A DNA stretch of 64,000 bases from the NCBI GenBank assembly GCA_949290355.1, contig CASERN010000011.1:310001-374000 (forward strand), in the 5' to 3' direction. Below, in pieces: positions 26,071 to 57,512 of this stretch; position 1 is the stretch's first letter; every line of letters begins with the position of its first letter. The translations under genes were made by a program, and so were the position numbers. Source of the stretch: an uncultured bacterium (GTDB lineage: Bacteria; Cyanobacteriota; Vampirovibrionia; Gastranaerophilales; Gastranaerophilaceae). The notes beneath the pieces were generated by a model. It saw only the letters and a list, made by a program, of their open reading frames with translations. It had not been told where the DNA came from and made no database searches.

Positions 26071-27402
26071 ATGAAAATATCAGTTATTTCAAATAATAAT
26101 ATATATACTTTTTCGGGACAAAATAATAATAATATTAAAAGACAAGAGGATTTGTTTACTCCTTTCCATGTGCTTGTTGGAGCAGCTTTTGGAGCTGTAT
26201 GCATTAGTAAGTTATTACCTGCAAAAAAAAATTTGTCCAACTATGTCAAATCTATAGCTCATGAGATGTCTAAATGTAATTCAATTAATATAAATCCATA
26301 TTCACTTTCTTGTTTGATTTCTAAAAGTGAGTTTTTACGAACTGTTTCTAAGTTTTCACCAAAAAACTATTTACATGATGTACAGAATATTAAAAATTTT
26401 GGATTTAACGCAGATTTGTTTTTAAAAACAGATGTTTCAAATAGTATAAGTATAAAAAATTTTTTGGAACAAATATCACAATATTCAAAAAATTTGTATA
26501 AAAGGACTGGTAACAATTTTCTATTTTCTATTGTAAATAAAGATTCTGTCTCTTCAATAAAAGAAGCTTTAATGATTGTATCTAAAAATCCAAATAAATT
26601 TAAGCATACAAGGTTTATTCCTGCTGTAGAATTAAGTTTTGTACATCCATCAATTGAAGATGGAAAATGTATTAATTCAAGCATTACAGCTTATGGGATT
26701 AATCCGTATAAGCTTGATAAATATTTTGAAAAACTTCAGGGAAAAAGGAGTTTGGCTCTTGAAAAAATGTTGAATGATGTTAATCAAAAATTTTCATTTA
26801 TAAAACTTAACAAAACTGAATTCCTCCGTTATTATAACGAAAATCGAACTTTTTTATCTACGGACTTATATTCATTGTTTGATAGTTATGCTAATGCTAA
26901 ATTAGCTTTATTTACCCAAGCAAAAAGGCTTAAGGAGGATTTTTCAAGTTATTATGAAAAGATAATGATTTCTGATGAATATAAAAATAAGAATATTAGG
27001 TACTTGAAAAATAAAAATGTTTTAGATAAAGATATAGATGAAACATTAGTTATTTCAGATGTCAGGAAGAAATATGAACCGCATTTGGTAAATAATAAAA
27101 TTGTTTCAAATTCAGAAAGCTCTTTTGAGGATATAATTGAATTATTAAAAGATGACAATGATGTAGTTTGTGCAATAACAAATCCATATACAAAATCTCA
27201 ATCATTGTTATTCCTCAAAGATATTTTAAAAATATCTGAAGAAAAAACTAATAGTTTAATTCAACTTTCTCAAAAATATATAGCAAATTCTGATAAATTT
27301 GATACAAACAGGGTTAATGAAACAGACAATATATTAAGGTCGTTAATAAATATTGGTGGTACAAATAGAATATTTACTAATTATATCGAGGTAACCAAAT
27401 GA
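26071..27402 (+). CDS. Unknown protein with Asn-rich N-terminal tag (443 aa)
   Basis: I do not recognise the 443-aa product. Its first 20 residues carry the recurrent tag (MKISVISNNNIYTFSGQ, core Phe14). A hydrophobic, Gly-rich stretch around residues 34-50 (HVLVGAAFGAVCISKLLP) could span a membrane. The rest is helical and Lys/Asn-rich. It resembles nothing I can name. The ribosome binding site is AAGGGAG and its stop overlaps the start of the next gene by 4 bases (ATGA), so the two form an operon of paired unknowns. Confidence 0.72.
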   Translation: MKISVISNNNIYTFSGQNNNNIKRQEDLFTPFHVLVGAAFGAVCISKLLPAKKNLSNYVKSIAHEMSKCNSININPYSLSCLISKSEFLRTVSKFSPKNYLHDVQNIKNFGFNADLFLKTDVSNSISIKNFLEQISQYSKNLYKRTGNNFLFSIVNKDSVSSIKEALMIVSKNPNKFKHTRFIPAVELSFVHPSIEDGKCINSSITAYGINPYKLDKYFEKLQGKRSLALEKMLNDVNQKFSFIKLNKTEFLRYYNENRTFLSTDLYSLFDSYANAKLALFTQAKRLKEDFSSYYEKIMISDEYKNKNIRYLKNKNVLDKDIDETLVISDVRKKYEPHLVNNKIVSNSESSFEDIIELLKDDNDVVCAITNPYTKSQSLLFLKDILKISEEKTNSLIQLSQKYIANSDKFDTNRVNETDNILRSLINIGGTNRIFTNYIEVTK

Positions 27403-40554: not shown

Positions 40555-42612
40555 TTACATTTTTAGCCACATAGCATCGTATGCGTTCAATCTTACTGTT
40601 AATTCTTTATTTTCAACTCTTGCTCGAACCATTTTATCTGTTAGGAGATTTTTCAGGTAGATGTCTTTTTCTTTTTTACCGAAATTGTCATCAGTGAATA
40701 TTACAGTTGCTTTAATTTTTTTATCGGACAAATTATTTATAATAACAACTCTATCATTGTTTGTAGCTCTTACGTAAGCAAATACTTCAGGTGATTTTGT
40801 CTTAAGTTCTATAAAAGAACCTCTTGTAATTACAGGATATTGTTTTCGTACTTTTATTAATTGTTTTACTCTTTCGTATACTCGATTGTTATATGTACCT
40901 TTGTGATTTACTGCATCTTCAAAAGTCTTTTGAGTAATTGGGCCTCTGTTTATATCTCTGCTGTCAAAATAGCTAAGCATTTTGACTTTGTTTTTAACAT
41001 CTTTATCTTTTTTTTGTTTGGCTTCACGCATTTTTGCACTTTTATTTGCATTTGCAAAATTGTTTTGGATTCCTATTTCATCTCCATAGTAAATAATTGG
41101 AATTCCAGGCAGCGACATAAGTATTGAAAAAGCCATACCTATTCTATCAGGATTGTTATCAAGGAAATTTGCCATTCTTCCACTTATTCCAAATCCTTTC
41201 CTAAATGCAGCACCTTTAGGAGCAAGATCTTCAAATAGTAGTTCTCTTGTTTTTTCGTTTACCATTTCAAGAGTAAGTTCATCATGAACTCTTAGAAAAA
41301 TCGCCCAAGAAGCAGATTCAGGAATTTGCGGGGTCTGCTTGTATGCTTTCCAAAAGTAACTGTTGTCAGCTGTTACTAAGGATGCCCAAATAGCAGGCAT
41401 GTAAGGGAAATGATATGCAATCTGAACCTCATCAGTTCTAGTCAATTCTTTTTCTTGCCCATTAATATTTTCTTTAATTTTTCTTTCAGTTCCAAAATAT
41501 GGGAGTATTTTATTTGGCATTTGACAGGCTTCTGCTTGGATTACTGATCTTGGTGCAACAGCTTGTATAAATGCGCTTAATATTTTTATAATTCTGTGAG
41601 TTTCTTCTAAGTTTTCAGCATTTGTTCCGTCTTCTTTTATAAGATATGGAATTGCATCCATTCTGAAAATGTCAATTCCTTGATTAGCCCAAAAAGCTAT
41701 CGTTTCAAGGTTATAATAAAGTACTTCAGGATTTTTCCAATTTATATCCAATTGAAAAGGGTAAAATGTGTGGTAAAAATAGTAATCTTTTTTATTTATT
41801 GTAACTTTGCGATAATTATTTTCGGTTATTTCAGGAAAAATTATTCTACGTTTTGATGTTTTTCCGTTAGGTTCTTTATATTCAGCTACCCAGCCTAATT
41901 TTGGGTCTTTATAACGTGTATATTCAGGCATTTGTTCTCTTACTACAAAATAATCCAGTTTTGAAGTATCGCCTTTTAGAGCTTGCTGAAACCATTCATG
42001 TTGATCTGAAAAGTGGTTTAGAACTAAATCAGCTTTTATTTTAAGTCCTTTAGATCTTGCTGCAGATAAGAATTTTTGGAATTCAAACATTCCTCCTAAG
42101 TCTTGTCTTATACCTCTCGGATTTTTTATGTCAAAACCTGCATCTTCCATTGGAGAATCAACAAATGGTAAAATATAAATAGTTGTAACCCCAAGATTTT
42201 TTAAATAATCAAGCATTTGGATATCATCTTTGAATGTATTATTTTTATCGGGATTTTTTACTCCAAAGTGATTTGCATAAAACATATAAATAACTTCATC
42301 TTTGTACCAATCAGAGGGTCTGTTTTTGTCTTCTTCAATAAGATTTGAAGGACGACTTTCTTTTGCGGATTTAGCTATTTTAAGTATATTAGCATAAATT
42401 TGTTCTGTATTTTCTGCTCCATATACTTTTGCAACAGATGTTTTTATTTCTTTTTCTAATTTAATTGGGATAATTGCTTCATTTGATTCTGCTTTGACAT
42501 TATTAGCAGTTTTTGATGGAAGAATATCCACAGCAAATGCAGTAGTGCTGCTGTTAAATATGAATAAGAGTGTGAGTATAGCTGCTATTATTCTTCTTCT
42601 TTTTTCTCTCAT
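40555..42612 (-). CDS. Secreted GH13 alpha-glucan enzyme, trehalose-synthase-like
   Basis: This 685-aa protein has a Sec signal (AAILTLLFIFNSSTTAFAVD) and a GH13 TIM barrel. Family regions are DLVLNHFS (region I), DIFRMDAIPYL (nucleophile Asp, region II), IQAEACQ (acid/base Glu) and FLRVHDEL (region IV). The stretch AIPYLIKEDGTNAENLEETH is close to trehalose synthase and amylosucrase types (GH13_16-like). Export is unusual for TreS, so an extracellular glucan hydrolase or transglucosylase is likely. It could supply dextrins for MalQ. Confidence 0.85.
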   Translation of the reverse strand: MREKRRRIIAAILTLLFIFNSSTTAFAVDILPSKTANNVKAESNEAIIPIKLEKEIKTSVAKVYGAENTEQIYANILKIAKSAKESRPSNLIEEDKNRPSDWYKDEVIYMFYANHFGVKNPDKNNTFKDDIQMLDYLKNLGVTTIYILPFVDSPMEDAGFDIKNPRGIRQDLGGMFEFQKFLSAARSKGLKIKADLVLNHFSDQHEWFQQALKGDTSKLDYFVVREQMPEYTRYKDPKLGWVAEYKEPNGKTSKRRIIFPEITENNYRKVTINKKDYYFYHTFYPFQLDINWKNPEVLYYNLETIAFWANQGIDIFRMDAIPYLIKEDGTNAENLEETHRIIKILSAFIQAVAPRSVIQAEACQMPNKILPYFGTERKIKENINGQEKELTRTDEVQIAYHFPYMPAIWASLVTADNSYFWKAYKQTPQIPESASWAIFLRVHDELTLEMVNEKTRELLFEDLAPKGAAFRKGFGISGRMANFLDNNPDRIGMAFSILMSLPGIPIIYYGDEIGIQNNFANANKSAKMREAKQKKDKDVKNKVKMLSYFDSRDINRGPITQKTFEDAVNHKGTYNNRVYERVKQLIKVRKQYPVITRGSFIELKTKSPEVFAYVRATNNDRVVIINNLSDKKIKATVIFTDDNFGKKEKDIYLKNLLTDKMVRARVENKELTVRLNAYDAMWLKM

Positions 42613-54242: not shown

Positions 54243-55109
54243 ATGAATGATAATATCAAAATAAGTATAATAATAACCAGTTATAATTATGAAAATTACA
54301 TATCTGAGACAATAGATAGTGTTATTTCTCAATCTTATGATAATTGGGAGATTGTAATTGTTGATGATGGCTCAAAAGATAATTCTGTTAATTTGATTAG
54401 AGAATATTGTAATAAAGATGATAGAATAAAACTTTTTCAACATCCAAATAATGAGAATAGAGGAATTATTGAAAGTATTAAACTAGGAATTTCTAAAGCA
54501 AGCAGTGAATGGATTGTTTTTTTAGAATCAGATGATTCTATCAACTCTGAATATCTAGATACAAAGGTAAAATTAATCAATAAATATCCGAACATAAAAT
54601 TATTTTTCAATGATGTAAATTGTTTTGGGGATTCTGAAAAAATAAAAAGTTATGAAAAATATTTTAAATTACAAAAAAAAGTTTTGTCAAAAAGAAAAAA
54701 TCCTGATAATTTTTTAGATGACTTAATTAAGAAAAATATTATTCCGACTTTTTCTGTTGTAATGGTAAGAAAAGACATAATTGAAAATGCTGACTTTGAT
54801 TCTCCGGTAAGATCCTTGTTTGATTATTATTTATGGATTCAAATTGCGATGAGAGAAGATTTTTATTATGTTGATAAAAAATTAACAAATTGGCGAATAC
54901 ATCCAACTAGTTATATAAATAAAAATATAAATATTAAATCCAGATTGAATTTGAGATTAAGAATTATTCAGTTGTTATGGAAAAATAAAATATTAAAATT
55001 CAGATATTTTCCTCTATATTTATCAGTGTTTAAGAAATTAATAATAAGTGTAAATTTTAAAAGAAAGCAATTAATTCTATTTGGTAAATATTTTGATTTT
55101 ACTAATTAA
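54243..55109 (+). CDS. Family 2 glycosyltransferase
   Basis: The 288-aa enzyme has the GT-A start ISIIITSYNYENYISETIDS, the nucleotide-binding IVIVDDGSKDNSV and a DxD-like ESDDS. Late basic, aromatic residues suit acceptor binding. Such enzymes add a sugar to lipid-linked or surface glycans. The donor is unknown. GTG 54228 is in frame, but ATG 54243 begins where the family usually does. A TATAAT lies at 54190-54195, giving a leader of about 40 bases. Confidence 0.83.
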   Translation: MNDNIKISIIITSYNYENYISETIDSVISQSYDNWEIVIVDDGSKDNSVNLIREYCNKDDRIKLFQHPNNENRGIIESIKLGISKASSEWIVFLESDDSINSEYLDTKVKLINKYPNIKLFFNDVNCFGDSEKIKSYEKYFKLQKKVLSKRKNPDNFLDDLIKKNIIPTFSVVMVRKDIIENADFDSPVRSLFDYYLWIQIAMREDFYYVDKKLTNWRIHPTSYINKNINIKSRLNLRLRIIQLLWKNKILKFRYFPLYLSVFKKLIISVNFKRKQLILFGKYFDFTN

Positions 55110-55197
55110 GAAATTTTATTTTTATATCTATCATTCTTATTTGCCAAATTTACAAAGATAGCAAAATTATTTTTTTTCAGTTTTCTATTACAATGCA

Positions 55198-55830
55198 ATT
55201 AAAATTGAAAGGCAGTTTTTTATTAAAACTATTAATAATAATTCTGTTTATAATCAACCAAATTTTGGGAGCCTAAAGTCAATAAAAACAGGAGGTAAAT
55301 TTAACATAGAAACCTATCCAGAAAAAGTGATAGATGTGATGAAAGCTTTTAGAGAATCGGATGCAATTAAAAAGTTTTGTGAAAAATACGATGTAGATGC
55401 AGGTTTTTATGCATTTGATCGATCTTCAAACGATTTTTTGGCAGATACAAGAGCTTTTGCAACAATGTCCTTAAAAACAAAGTATATTAATCCTGATGGT
55501 AAAGAAACATATCCTGATATCGTTTATACAGAATATCCTTACAGAAAAGATAATGTTTCTTCGAAAACTGCATTTAGCGAGTTGACTAAAAAAATAAAAG
55601 AACTAAAATTTGAGGACTTAGAATATAGATTGTTAGCACAAGTAAAAGTATTAAAAGAAAAAAATCAAAGCAGGAATTATAAAGAAGAATACAATGAAAT
55701 AATGAATAGCTTATTGCCTAAAGATTCTATATCTCCTCAAAAAGCTGATACAATAACTCCTGATACAAATAAAAATAAGTTTAAAAAATTAATAGCAGGT
55801 GTGAAAAATTTCTTTAAAGGTGAATTATAA
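55198..55830 (+). CDS. Tagged unknown protein with apparent ATT start (210 aa)
   Basis: The frame is open well upstream of its first standard start (GTG 55327). Reading from ATT 55198 gives [M]KIERQFFIKTINNNSVYNQ followed by PNFGSLKS, the same N-terminal tag (core Phe23) as the ATG-started neighbours, then the soluble domain GKFNIETYPEKVIDVMKAFR. TATTAC lies 6 bases before the ATT. Either ATT starts translation, as for infC in E. coli, or an ATG was mutated and the gene is damaged. The C-terminus is helical and basic (NKFKKLIAGVKNFFK). Function unknown. Confidence 0.55.
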   Translation: MKIERQFFIKTINNNSVYNQPNFGSLKSIKTGGKFNIETYPEKVIDVMKAFRESDAIKKFCEKYDVDAGFYAFDRSSNDFLADTRAFATMSLKTKYINPDGKETYPDIVYTEYPYRKDNVSSKTAFSELTKKIKELKFEDLEYRLLAQVKVLKEKNQSRNYKEEYNEIMNSLLPKDSISPQKADTITPDTNKNKFKKLIAGVKNFFKGEL

Positions 55831-56207
55831 AAATAGTGGATATTAATTATGCTATTTTTGTAAAATTCCCTTAATATAATTTTAAAATACAGCTCTATTG
55901 GTTGTACAAGAACAACCAGTTCAGGAATATTTGACAACCAGTTCGGGAATTTTGGGATAGGTAAAGTTAAAAAGTTAAATTAATGTTATAAGTTTTTAAA
56001 TTAACAAAATAACAAAATTTTTTTTACAGTTTTTATATTTTCATACACCAGAAAAGAGGAAAAATTAATAAATGAGAATAGATATAAAATAATATTTAAA
56101 CTTTCTATAAAAATAACTCGAAAGTTTAGAATACAATAAATCTTCCGAGTATATTCTATTTTTTTTATAATAAAAATATTCTATTAAATAGTTTTATTTA
56201 GAAGTAA
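55831..56207. other. Gene-free 377-base region with repeat and hairpin
   Basis: No gene is seen. It contains a tandem repeat at 55912-55955 and a hairpin at about 56117-56150 (ACTCGAAAGTTT/AATCTTCCGAGT, two mismatches), followed after a second small pairing by a T-run to 56165. The hairpin could be a rightward terminator. Confidence 0.5.
55912..55955. repeat. Two-copy tandem repeat (period 22)
   Basis: ACAACCAGTTCAGGAAT at 55912 recurs at 55934 as ACAACCAGTTCGGGAAT, two copies 22 bases apart, preceded by a small hairpin GGTTGT/ACAACC. A third related copy, CCAGTTCAGGAAT, lies at 57342, and an inverted CCTGAACTG lies near 57257. Confidence 0.6.
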
Positions 56208-56582
56208 TTAACAAAGTTCAGCATCATCCATTGCAAATTGCTCTAACGAGCCTGTTTTTGCTTGAATACAGATATATATAGTATCTGTATCTGTTTCCAT
56301 TGTTCTTTTAACTTGCGGTAAAACTTTAATGCAACTACCTTCTTTAAAGTTTATGGTTGTGTCATCAAGAACCATTCTTCCTTCGCCTTTTACAAAAATA
56401 TAGATTTCTTCATTTTGTTTGTGTTTATGACTGAACGGCAGTTTTGTATTTTTCTTCATTGTGTTTAGCGAAATTTCACATGAAGTTAAATTTAATGCAT
56501 CATGCAAAAATGCTTTTCCATTTTGATAGCTGGTTTCTAGGTTTTCCAGTTTTCCAAGTTCTGTTTTTGTGTAATTTGTCAT
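56208..56582 (-). CDS. Cupin-fold protein under MarR control
   Basis: The 124-aa protein is a single cupin domain. Motif 1 is HKHKQNEEIYIFVKGEGRM (His52, His54, Glu58/59). In motif 2 (GSCIKVLPQVKRTMETD) the usual metal His is replaced by Lys/Arg, so a metal centre may be incomplete or the protein may be a binder rather than an enzyme. The ribosome binding site AAGGAGG is perfect. It lies 47 bases after marR, and an operator half-overlaps its 5' leader. It is presumably the gene controlled by MarR. Confidence 0.82.
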   Translation of the reverse strand: MTNYTKTELGKLENLETSYQNGKAFLHDALNLTSCEISLNTMKKNTKLPFSHKHKQNEEIYIFVKGEGRMVLDDTTINFKEGSCIKVLPQVKRTMETDTDTIYICIQAKTGSLEQFAMDDAELC

Positions 56583-56596
56583 AAGTCCTCCTTTTT

Positions 56597-56612
56597 TGTT
56601 TGATGTCTAACT
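56597..56612. promoter_or_regulatory. Second MarR operator, before the cupin gene
   Basis: TGTTTGATGTCTAACT matches the operator at 57057-57072 in 14 of 16 positions. It lies 15 bases before the cupin start codon, between marR and the cupin gene. Confidence 0.6.
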
Positions 56613-56628
56613 ATTACTATAAAAATTT

Positions 56629-57045
56629 TTATACGTTTTTTAACATTTTTTCTAACAAATAATCTAATTGTTTTGCTTCATCTTCAGTAAAATTTTTATA
56701 CAGCATTGTATTTAAGTCATTTGAGATAATTTCAAATATCGGTTTAAATTCAAGGCCCTTTTCGGATAGACTAATATAAGTGATTCTATTATCATCTGAA
56801 GCTTTTTCTCTTTTTACAAGCCCATTTTTTTCAAGTTTGTCTATCAACACTGTAACTGTAGCTTTTGTTCTACCTATTTTTTCAGCTATATTTTTCATTG
56901 TTATTTTTTTATACTTATACAGGACAACGAGAATATCACCATGCGAAGGTGCTAAATTCCCATAGTTGTATTCTTTTAATTTGGATATTATGAATGCATT
57001 TCCTGCTTCTGAAATTTTTGATGTTAATGAAAGAGCTTTTAACAT
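56629..57045 (-). CDS. MarR-family transcriptional regulator
   Basis: This 138-aa dimeric winged-helix repressor has the typical MarR wing KTVTVLIDKLEKNGLVKRE-like sequence (TVLIDKLEKNGLVKREKASDD) and ITMKNIAEKIGRTKATV recognition helix. MarR proteins sense small phenolics, oxidants or antibiotics. A perfect palindrome overlaps its own promoter, so it is autorepressed. The same site precedes the cupin gene. A consensus -10 box 6 bases before the ATG means the mRNA is leaderless. Confidence 0.88.
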   Translation of the reverse strand: MLKALSLTSKISEAGNAFIISKLKEYNYGNLAPSHGDILVVLYKYKKITMKNIAEKIGRTKATVTVLIDKLEKNGLVKREKASDDNRITYISLSEKGLEFKPIFEIISNDLNTMLYKNFTEDEAKQLDYLLEKMLKNV

Positions 57046-57051
57046 AATAAT

Positions 57052-57080
57052 ATTATAGTTAGATGTCTAACTAATGTCAA
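57052..57080 (-). promoter_or_regulatory. Consensus leaderless promoter of marR
   Basis: On the minus strand TTGACA (57075-57080), 17-base spacer, TATAAT (57052-57057), then 6 bases to the ATG at 57045. Both hexamers are perfect. It is the cleanest leaderless promoter in the window. Confidence 0.85.
57057..57072. promoter_or_regulatory. MarR operator overlapping its promoter
   Basis: AGTTAGATGTCTAACT is a perfect 7-bp inverted repeat with a 2-base centre. It fills the -10/-35 spacer of the marR promoter. Together with the near copy at 56597-56612 it defines the repressor's site. Confidence 0.75.
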
Positions 57081-57512
57081 TATGTTTTTTTGTATGATTT
57101 ATTTAAAAATTTTATAGGATTCCGACTTTATTTGATAAAACTTCCAACTTATATAATTTAAATTTTATTAAATTTCATTAAATTTTGTTTAATTTTTATA
57201 TAAAAAGCTCTTCTTAAATTTCAACAAATTTTCAACAATGTCCTGTCCCAAAAATCCTGAACTGTGTCTAAATTCCCGCCATTTAAGGTTTTGAGACACT
57301 GCCCTGTTTTAGACATTGACGGACAGTAATCGGACTTTTTTGCCAGTTCAGGAATTTCATTTTTAGCGATTTCCGACTAAAAAAATCAAGATATATTTGA
57401 AACACACCCCTATTAGTTCAAAAAAATCAAATTCCTGCAATGTCTGTTCAAATGTATTAATCTTAACGTGAAACTATAGCAATAGTGGGGAAAAGTTAAA
57501 AATATGTAAAAC
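57081..57512. other. Gene-free region between marR and the tRNA-fMet remnant
   Basis: No gene is seen. It is AT-rich to 57240 and then has a more GC-balanced stretch (57241-57440) with the CAGTTCAGG-type repeat in both orientations (near 57255 and 57342) and repeated GACA-type words. It may be decayed mobile DNA. Confidence 0.4.

Follow-up and report, generated by a model that had tools for sequence, protein, structure and literature searches.

An orphan-family gene of a Gastranaerophilales bacterium with ATT at, or one codon before, the start position of its relatives

The locus and its reading frame

The stretch of DNA analyzed here (the window) comprised 64,000 nucleotides (G000:C11:310001-374000; host genome 1.85 Mb) with a G+C content of 29.6%. 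A mechanical ORF call had placed a gene at GTG 55327. The frame of this GTG was open from 55162 to a stop at 55828-55830, and no in-frame ATG, GTG or TTG was present between 55162 and 55327. The original prediction had extended the gene 43 codons upstream to ATT 55198, and the sequence confirmed that this triplet is in frame. However, four in-frame ATT triplets precede the N-terminal tag of the protein (55198, 55204, 55222 and 55231) and ATT makes up 4.7% of all triplets, so an upstream ATT alone is no signal. Comparison with relatives led to a re-reading of the gene from 55222, giving a protein that begins (M)KTINNNSVYNQPNFGSL... and is 202 aa long, with the tag peptide NNNSVYNQPNFGSLK. The features of the locus were as follows.

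55157..55221, + strand: leader, homologous to the one common in the family (AATAGCAAAA ... TTTACAGTTTTTATATTTTCATACAACACAACATAGGAGATATTAATAA)
55198..55200, + strand: ATT of the original prediction, judged from DNA alignments to be leader
55209..55212, + strand: AAGG, 9 bases upstream of ATT 55222, where the family has its AGGAGA Shine-Dalgarno site
55222..55224, + strand: ATT in the family start column of DNA alignments A2 and A5, either a mutated start or a rare AUU start
55222..55830, + strand: re-read coding sequence, (M)KTINNNSVYNQPNFGSLKSI..., 202 aa plus stop, based on profile and BLAST relatives with ATG or GTG here and on the AlphaFold model
55258..55275, + strand: tag PNFGSL
55327..55329, + strand: GTG at which the mechanical ORF call begins, corresponding to codon 36 in the re-read gene
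55903..56100, + strand: left-end cassette block, with end repeats, a family leader with a good Shine-Dalgarno site, and ATG 56072
56208-56582, - strand: cupin-like gene between the cassette ends, just under the Pfam cut-off
56629-57045, - strand: MarR gene between the cassette ends
57137..57451, + strand: right-end cassette block, with an inverted end repeat at 57246-57264

The leader 55157-55221 contains TATTAC, ATG 55193 and ATT 55198. Within 55050-56250 a promoter scan gave 12 sites, compared with 8.6 (sd 2.5) in shuffled sequences, which is no evidence for a promoter, and the same region held no terminator-like site. The Rfam scan returned tRNAs only.

Relatives and the position of the start

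A clear homologue of the re-read protein was found in two of the 33 genomes of the genus, the window's own and G031. Weak matches (E 0.001-0.1) in other genomes of the genus were not counted as family, and those read from one genus scan came from a 320-350-aa protein starting MKAVVFDEG. A profile made from the two proteins gave matches at E 0.01 in 68 of the 383 genomes of the taxonomic family, distributed over 17 of 41 genera. The window protein was 33% identical to that of G031 (single BLASTP comparison, 193 columns, E 5e-21) and 40-41% identical to the members in G106, G128 and G138. A contig scan with the protein and a viral-contig scan with alignment A3 returned no relative closer than about 40% identity, and when the family was searched again using subfamily alignment A7 (382 genomes, largely the same draw), the nearest members were once more G106, G128 and G138. 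These comparisons place the window gene, as a divergent member, in an orphan family (G031 type, M[RK]I[DE]NN...NFG.LKSI). The gene shows the family similarity and the tag; at its start, neither an ATG or GTG nor a good Shine-Dalgarno site was found. The protein is still a homologue despite the ATT (or AAA) in the start column and AAGGCAG in place of AGGAGA.

The starts of the relatives were then counted. Among 33 distinct relatives, 31 genes started with ATG and two with GTG (G106 and G128), all of them just before the tag, and none started at the equivalent of 55327. This count comprised distinct members of at least 130 aa whose frames were readable from ATG or GTG; members below 130 aa, duplicates and frames with neither codon (the window gene among them) were left out, so an ATT start in a relative could not have appeared in it. 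A DNA alignment of 19 leaders (A5) showed 17 ATG (one of these rows being the window's own second leader copy), one GTG and the window's ATT 55222 in the start column, and a three-row DNA alignment (A2) likewise set the column at ATT 55222. When the window protein was compared with those of G031 and G106 without gaps, the column fell one codon later, on AAA 55225-55227. Comparison with the relatives places the start of the gene at 55222 to within one codon. The check suggested for ATT 55198, a look for ATG in orthologues, showed ATG or GTG in the relatives, but in a column eight codons further downstream, on ATT 55222 (or on the next codon, 55225). The more general claim, that the gene begins with an ATT or a mutated start codon, agreed with ATT 55222 standing against the ATG or GTG of the relatives.

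Initiation at ATT 55198 itself, on a leaderless transcript and with MKIERQFF added before the re-read start, is very improbable, and as a start this triplet is very probably wrong. The frame is open up to 55162, and TATTAC (55186-55191) does lie six bases before ATT 55198, as the original prediction stated. However, this stretch aligned to the leader in the members with the common leader, and in G031 the frame is closed by two in-frame TAA directly before the ATG, which itself stands directly before RIDNNYTQRQPNFGRLKSI and behind AGGAGATATTAATAA; the two TAA leave no N-terminal extension in G031. Four in-frame ATT precede the tag, of which ATT 55198 is only one, and the predicted 16S-tail pairing upstream of ATT 55198 was just -1.0 kcal/mol. 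Of the proposed extension, PNFGSL was retained, as the relatives start just before the tag, but the KIERQ part was assigned to the leader.

The leaderless layout did not hold either. Where relatives have the common leader, the part corresponding to 55193-55221 is leader with a Shine-Dalgarno site, and this, together with the TAA pair of G031, indicates that the layout is not leaderless. As support for a leaderless start, TATTAC failed, since it was found at -16 to -2 in one of 427 sampled ORFs (read from the first ATG). A Shine-Dalgarno core four-mer was present in 223 of the 427 ORFs, compared with 28 in a control window further up. TATAAT occurred close to the start in 35 of the 427, compared with 14-21 in windows further up, and this excess may mean that some leaderless genes exist. 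ATG 55193 was rejected as a start as well; it opens another frame of 27 codons, as the original prediction had noted. Of the relatives, G253 alone also has ATGCAAT in its leader, 25 bases before its ATG; in A5 this lies two columns away from that of the window and is a hint only.

Translation from GTG 55327, the first standard start codon in the frame, would yield a 167-aa protein without the tag. We regard this as hardly credible: none of the 33 relatives started there, the conserved tag and the LKSI segment lie upstream, and the predicted 16S-tail pairing before this GTG was -0.2 kcal/mol. In the AlphaFold model of the window protein, the first confident strand comprised residues 18-25 and the first helix residues 33-45 (counted from 55222); a start at GTG 55327 would lose this strand and cut this helix. 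That GTG 55327 is not the start, as originally predicted, was thus borne out by the comparison of orthologues.

Start codon and state of the gene body

The predicted pairing of AAGGCAG before 55222 with the 16S tail was -4.4 kcal/mol. The corresponding values were -7.3 kcal/mol for G031 and for infC, -6.0 kcal/mol for G253 and for the 56-kb copy in the window, and -9.7 kcal/mol for G106. The body of the gene was intact, with no stop in 202 codons. Counting columns conserved in 85% or more of the other members, the window protein kept 16 of 18, missing only M1 and I3, while the GTG members missed three of 20; at the 75% level the window protein missed nine of 36 columns and the GTG members 11 of 37. 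In the tree, the window protein grouped with G106 and G128 (94/84), where the tool warned that long branches meet; its end branch was 0.85, compared with 0.96 for the stem of the GTG pair. A stop would arise from about 5.7% of single substitutions, corresponding to 0.35 stops per 1% divergence in a simple count without indels. At this rate, the intact body makes a loss older than about 9% neutral divergence unlikely, and a younger loss is possible. An intact body on a branch that shows no acceleration is as compatible with continued use as with recent loss. Broken copies of the family were found in other genomes, with a stop at codon 9 in G130:C1 and with the gene in pieces in G101 and G064.

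We consider it probable, the position included, that the start at 55222-55227 is mutated and that the gene is translated weakly or not at all. The ancestral start codon, ATG or a GTG as in two relatives, would have been replaced at 55222-55227, so that ATT 55222 would now stand in the start position behind a weakened Shine-Dalgarno site. Either ribosomes would initiate weakly at AUU 55222, with MKTINNNSVYNQPNFGSL... as the product, or the gene would have been silenced too recently for its body to decay. Both the loss of the start by mutation and the residual AUU translation are what we infer from the comparison. Several points stand against a mutated start. The nearest relatives are only about 40% identical, and the joining with the GTG members in the tree falls under the long-branch warning. 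If the gapless protein comparison is followed, the start column lies on AAA 55225, and ATT 55222 is then a mere neighbor in a sequence where ATT accounts for 4.7% of triplets. In addition, the host probably uses a non-ATG start elsewhere, in infC, and AUU 55222 may therefore be a selected start.

The AUU start of E. coli infC is a non-AUG start that acts as a brake on expression. E. coli infC is a core gene, whereas the window gene is an orphan, clear in two of 33 genomes of the genus. Unlike the AUU of E. coli, the genus's own infC seems to use ATA. Of 30 infC loci of the genus (L117 on the minus strand, and L118-L146), 29 were readable (all but L119). GGAGA, a spacing of 7 bases and an in-frame ATA were present in all 29 readable loci, and infC of the genus, on this pattern, likely starts with ATA. 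An ATG also stood just before NER in 27 of the 29 loci (L123 had ATT there and L118 ATA), and L118 had an ATG upstream of the ATA; owing to these ATG codons, the ATA start, though inferred, falls short of proof.

Starts at AUU and AUA are rare but already known. In S. aureus, infC and ccpN are reported to start with AUA and cvfC1 with AUU, behind extended Shine-Dalgarno motifs, with infC and cvfC1 in poor medium at roughly one-tenth of what AUG gives (PMC13009471). A functional AUU start is described for Y. pestis rcsD-Hpt (PMC10191623). In Borrelia burgdorferi, an AUU start is attributed to PncA (BBE22), with a database entry that was too short, on the basis of genetics and biochemistry (PMC13398362). 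PncA resembles the window gene in having been annotated from a later start, with an N-terminal part needed for the fold lying upstream behind AUU; it differs in that AUU use is reported as demonstrated, whereas for the window gene only the position is supported. Y. pestis rcsD-Hpt and S. aureus cvfC1, infC and ccpN resemble the window gene in that a rare AUU or AUA is reached via a ribosome-binding site; the S. aureus sites differ in their extended motifs, whereas the site of the window gene is weaker than those of its relatives.

These AUU starts, as reported for Borrelia PncA, Yersinia RcsD-Hpt and S. aureus cvfC1 (PMC13398362, PMC10191623, PMC13009471), make the use of AUU at 55222 possible, and AUU 55222 could be a genuine, selected start of low efficiency that throttles the protein, as AUU and AUA do elsewhere in bacteria. 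The intact gene body, the probable non-ATG start in the genus (infC ATA, 29 of 29 readable loci) and the two relatives with GTG in place of ATG favor this reading. However, the ATT is common to no relative, and the site is weak compared with the extended motifs described in the S. aureus paper and with the GGAGA of infC in the genus; this weakness argues against a selected, regulated AUU start, although a strong site is not indispensable and the weak one makes such a start less likely without disproving it. We hold such a start to be unlikely, and a mutated start remains our preferred reading.

A sequencing or assembly error, with a true base that gives ATG 55222, was also considered. ATT and ATG are one base apart. 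The contig is 1.03 Mb long and the genome 99.96% complete with 0 contamination; these figures suggest a good assembly but are no test of the base in question. We judge an error quite improbable.

Tag, fold and cassettes of the family

In the window protein the F of NFGSLKSI is residue 15 counted from 55222, and in close members it is residue 14-15. In alignment A4 (29 rows, comprising 28 of the 33 start-counted relatives and the window gene), F15 was invariant and N14 nearly so. The original prediction had placed the PNFGSL tag on other proteins. Within the window this was not upheld: in its six frames PNFGSL occurred elsewhere once, at 41894, where it lies opposite ORF 40555-42612 on the other strand and is followed immediately by a stop, so that, as far as the sequence tells, this copy is not on a credible protein. 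The close form PNFG[RSKM]LKSI occurred in family members from other genomes; 18 of 24 loci with this form were recorded as Candidatus Gastranaerophilales and the other six as uncultured bacterium. Other window proteins (ISFGGL, ISFGAR, YTFSGQ) had only a loose [NST]F.[GA]-like pattern in common.

A loose N-terminal tag, M.[IV] ... [NST]F.[GASN], was observed at window positions 26071, 32623 and 50319 and in the sampled stretches L013-L032. The pattern [NST]F.[GASN] was present in residues 5-50 of 20 of 71 proteins starting M.[IV], compared with 40 of 356 others (Fisher P 0.00056); this pattern was picked after looking at the data, so the enrichment is a lead only. [NST]FG and [NST]F.G alone showed no enrichment near starts. 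In G128 (L083, 252-5990), neighboring small ORFs had the N-termini NISFQA, LSFGAKL, PSFSSKL, QNFGALKSI, LRFGAKL or PNFGKLKSI, and the small ORFs of L083 with F.G-type tags adjoined an infC-like ORF.

AlphaFold gave a mean pLDDT of 82.0 for the window protein and 83.7 for G031; both were built from almost the same alignment and do not count as independent. Structural alignment of the window model with VIA-align returned mostly HPF/RaiA in the top rows, with a best Z of 7.6 and an rmsd of 4.4 over 107 residues (5mmj_y; residues 12-139), and the G031 model gave Z 7.1 with an rmsd of 4.4 over 100 residues. The HPF/RaiA ribosome hibernation factors thus resemble the window protein in predicted fold only, at Z up to 7.6, and a Z below 8 may reflect merely a common arrangement. 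They differ in that none of 29 family members gave a Pfam match to them at E 0.1. No HPF/RaiA sequence match was obtained for the 29 members in Pfam, NCBIfam or PDB sequences, although HMMER filters may miss remote kin. Matches to known families were scattered and weak, in one or two of the 29 members, the best being Pfam E 0.00043 (DUF3284, one member), NCBIfam 0.0022 and PHROG 0.0088, and PDB sequences gave no match at E 1. Foldseek at E 0.001 found nothing in PDB, nor, with the G031 model, among viral models. A ribosome- or RNA-binding role for the family would be a guess from these models.

The window gene adjoins the left cassette end from just outside. The left-end block 55903-56100 was 82-83% identical to blocks that precede family genes in L093, L096, L109 and L114, and its ATG 56072 opened only MRIDIK-stop (56072-56092). 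The right-end block 57137-57451 matched the DNA that follows the related gene at 85% identity in G128 and at 81% in G106. In the window's genome, CAGTTCNGGAATTTTGGGA (at most one mismatch) occurred once in the forward and once in the reverse orientation, at window 55939 and 57246, while the control gave none. A leader and gene block of 727-772 bases was more than 99% identical between L109 and each of L093, L096, L098 and L107; the flanks agreed only over short repeats or at roughly 80%, and the left end of the block carried repeats of type CAGTTCAGGAATTTTGGGA. Residues 1-75 of the family protein were identical across five genera (G220, G316, G146, G150 and G094), which suggests transfer. The orphan family appears to travel within cassettes bounded by repeats.

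Left-end and right-end blocks were seen around family genes in the window (55903-57451) and in L083, L096, L109 and L114. In L115, a contig of 6,752 bases, both ends stop inside copies of the family tag region, in opposite orientation, and this suggests a multi-copy 5' region in that genome.

Much more speculatively, and with little confidence, the locus can be read as a split cassette member, in which an intact body with a dead start (55222-55830) lies beside an intact leader and ATG that lack a body (56072), placed at a cassette's left end. A putative exchange of leaders and bodies would switch copies on or off, with the tag as a putative sorting or export signal. If this were true, small proteins with a common N-terminal F.G-type tag would be spread by such arrays in Gastranaerophilales.

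Literature on AUU and other non-AUG starts and on Gastranaerophilales gave, among the matches listed, no description of the family or the tag, and one may exist elsewhere. The gene had been called too short from sequence alone; its start has been corrected, and the N-terminal tag proves to be part of the protein. Rules based on start codons readily overlook rare AUU and AUA starts, and the probable genus-wide ATA start of infC is the cleaner case. The orphan family in its repeat-bounded cassettes is more interesting than the start codon: nearly identical in several genera and with a common tag, it suggests that Gastranaerophilales have a whole group of small proteins with such tags.
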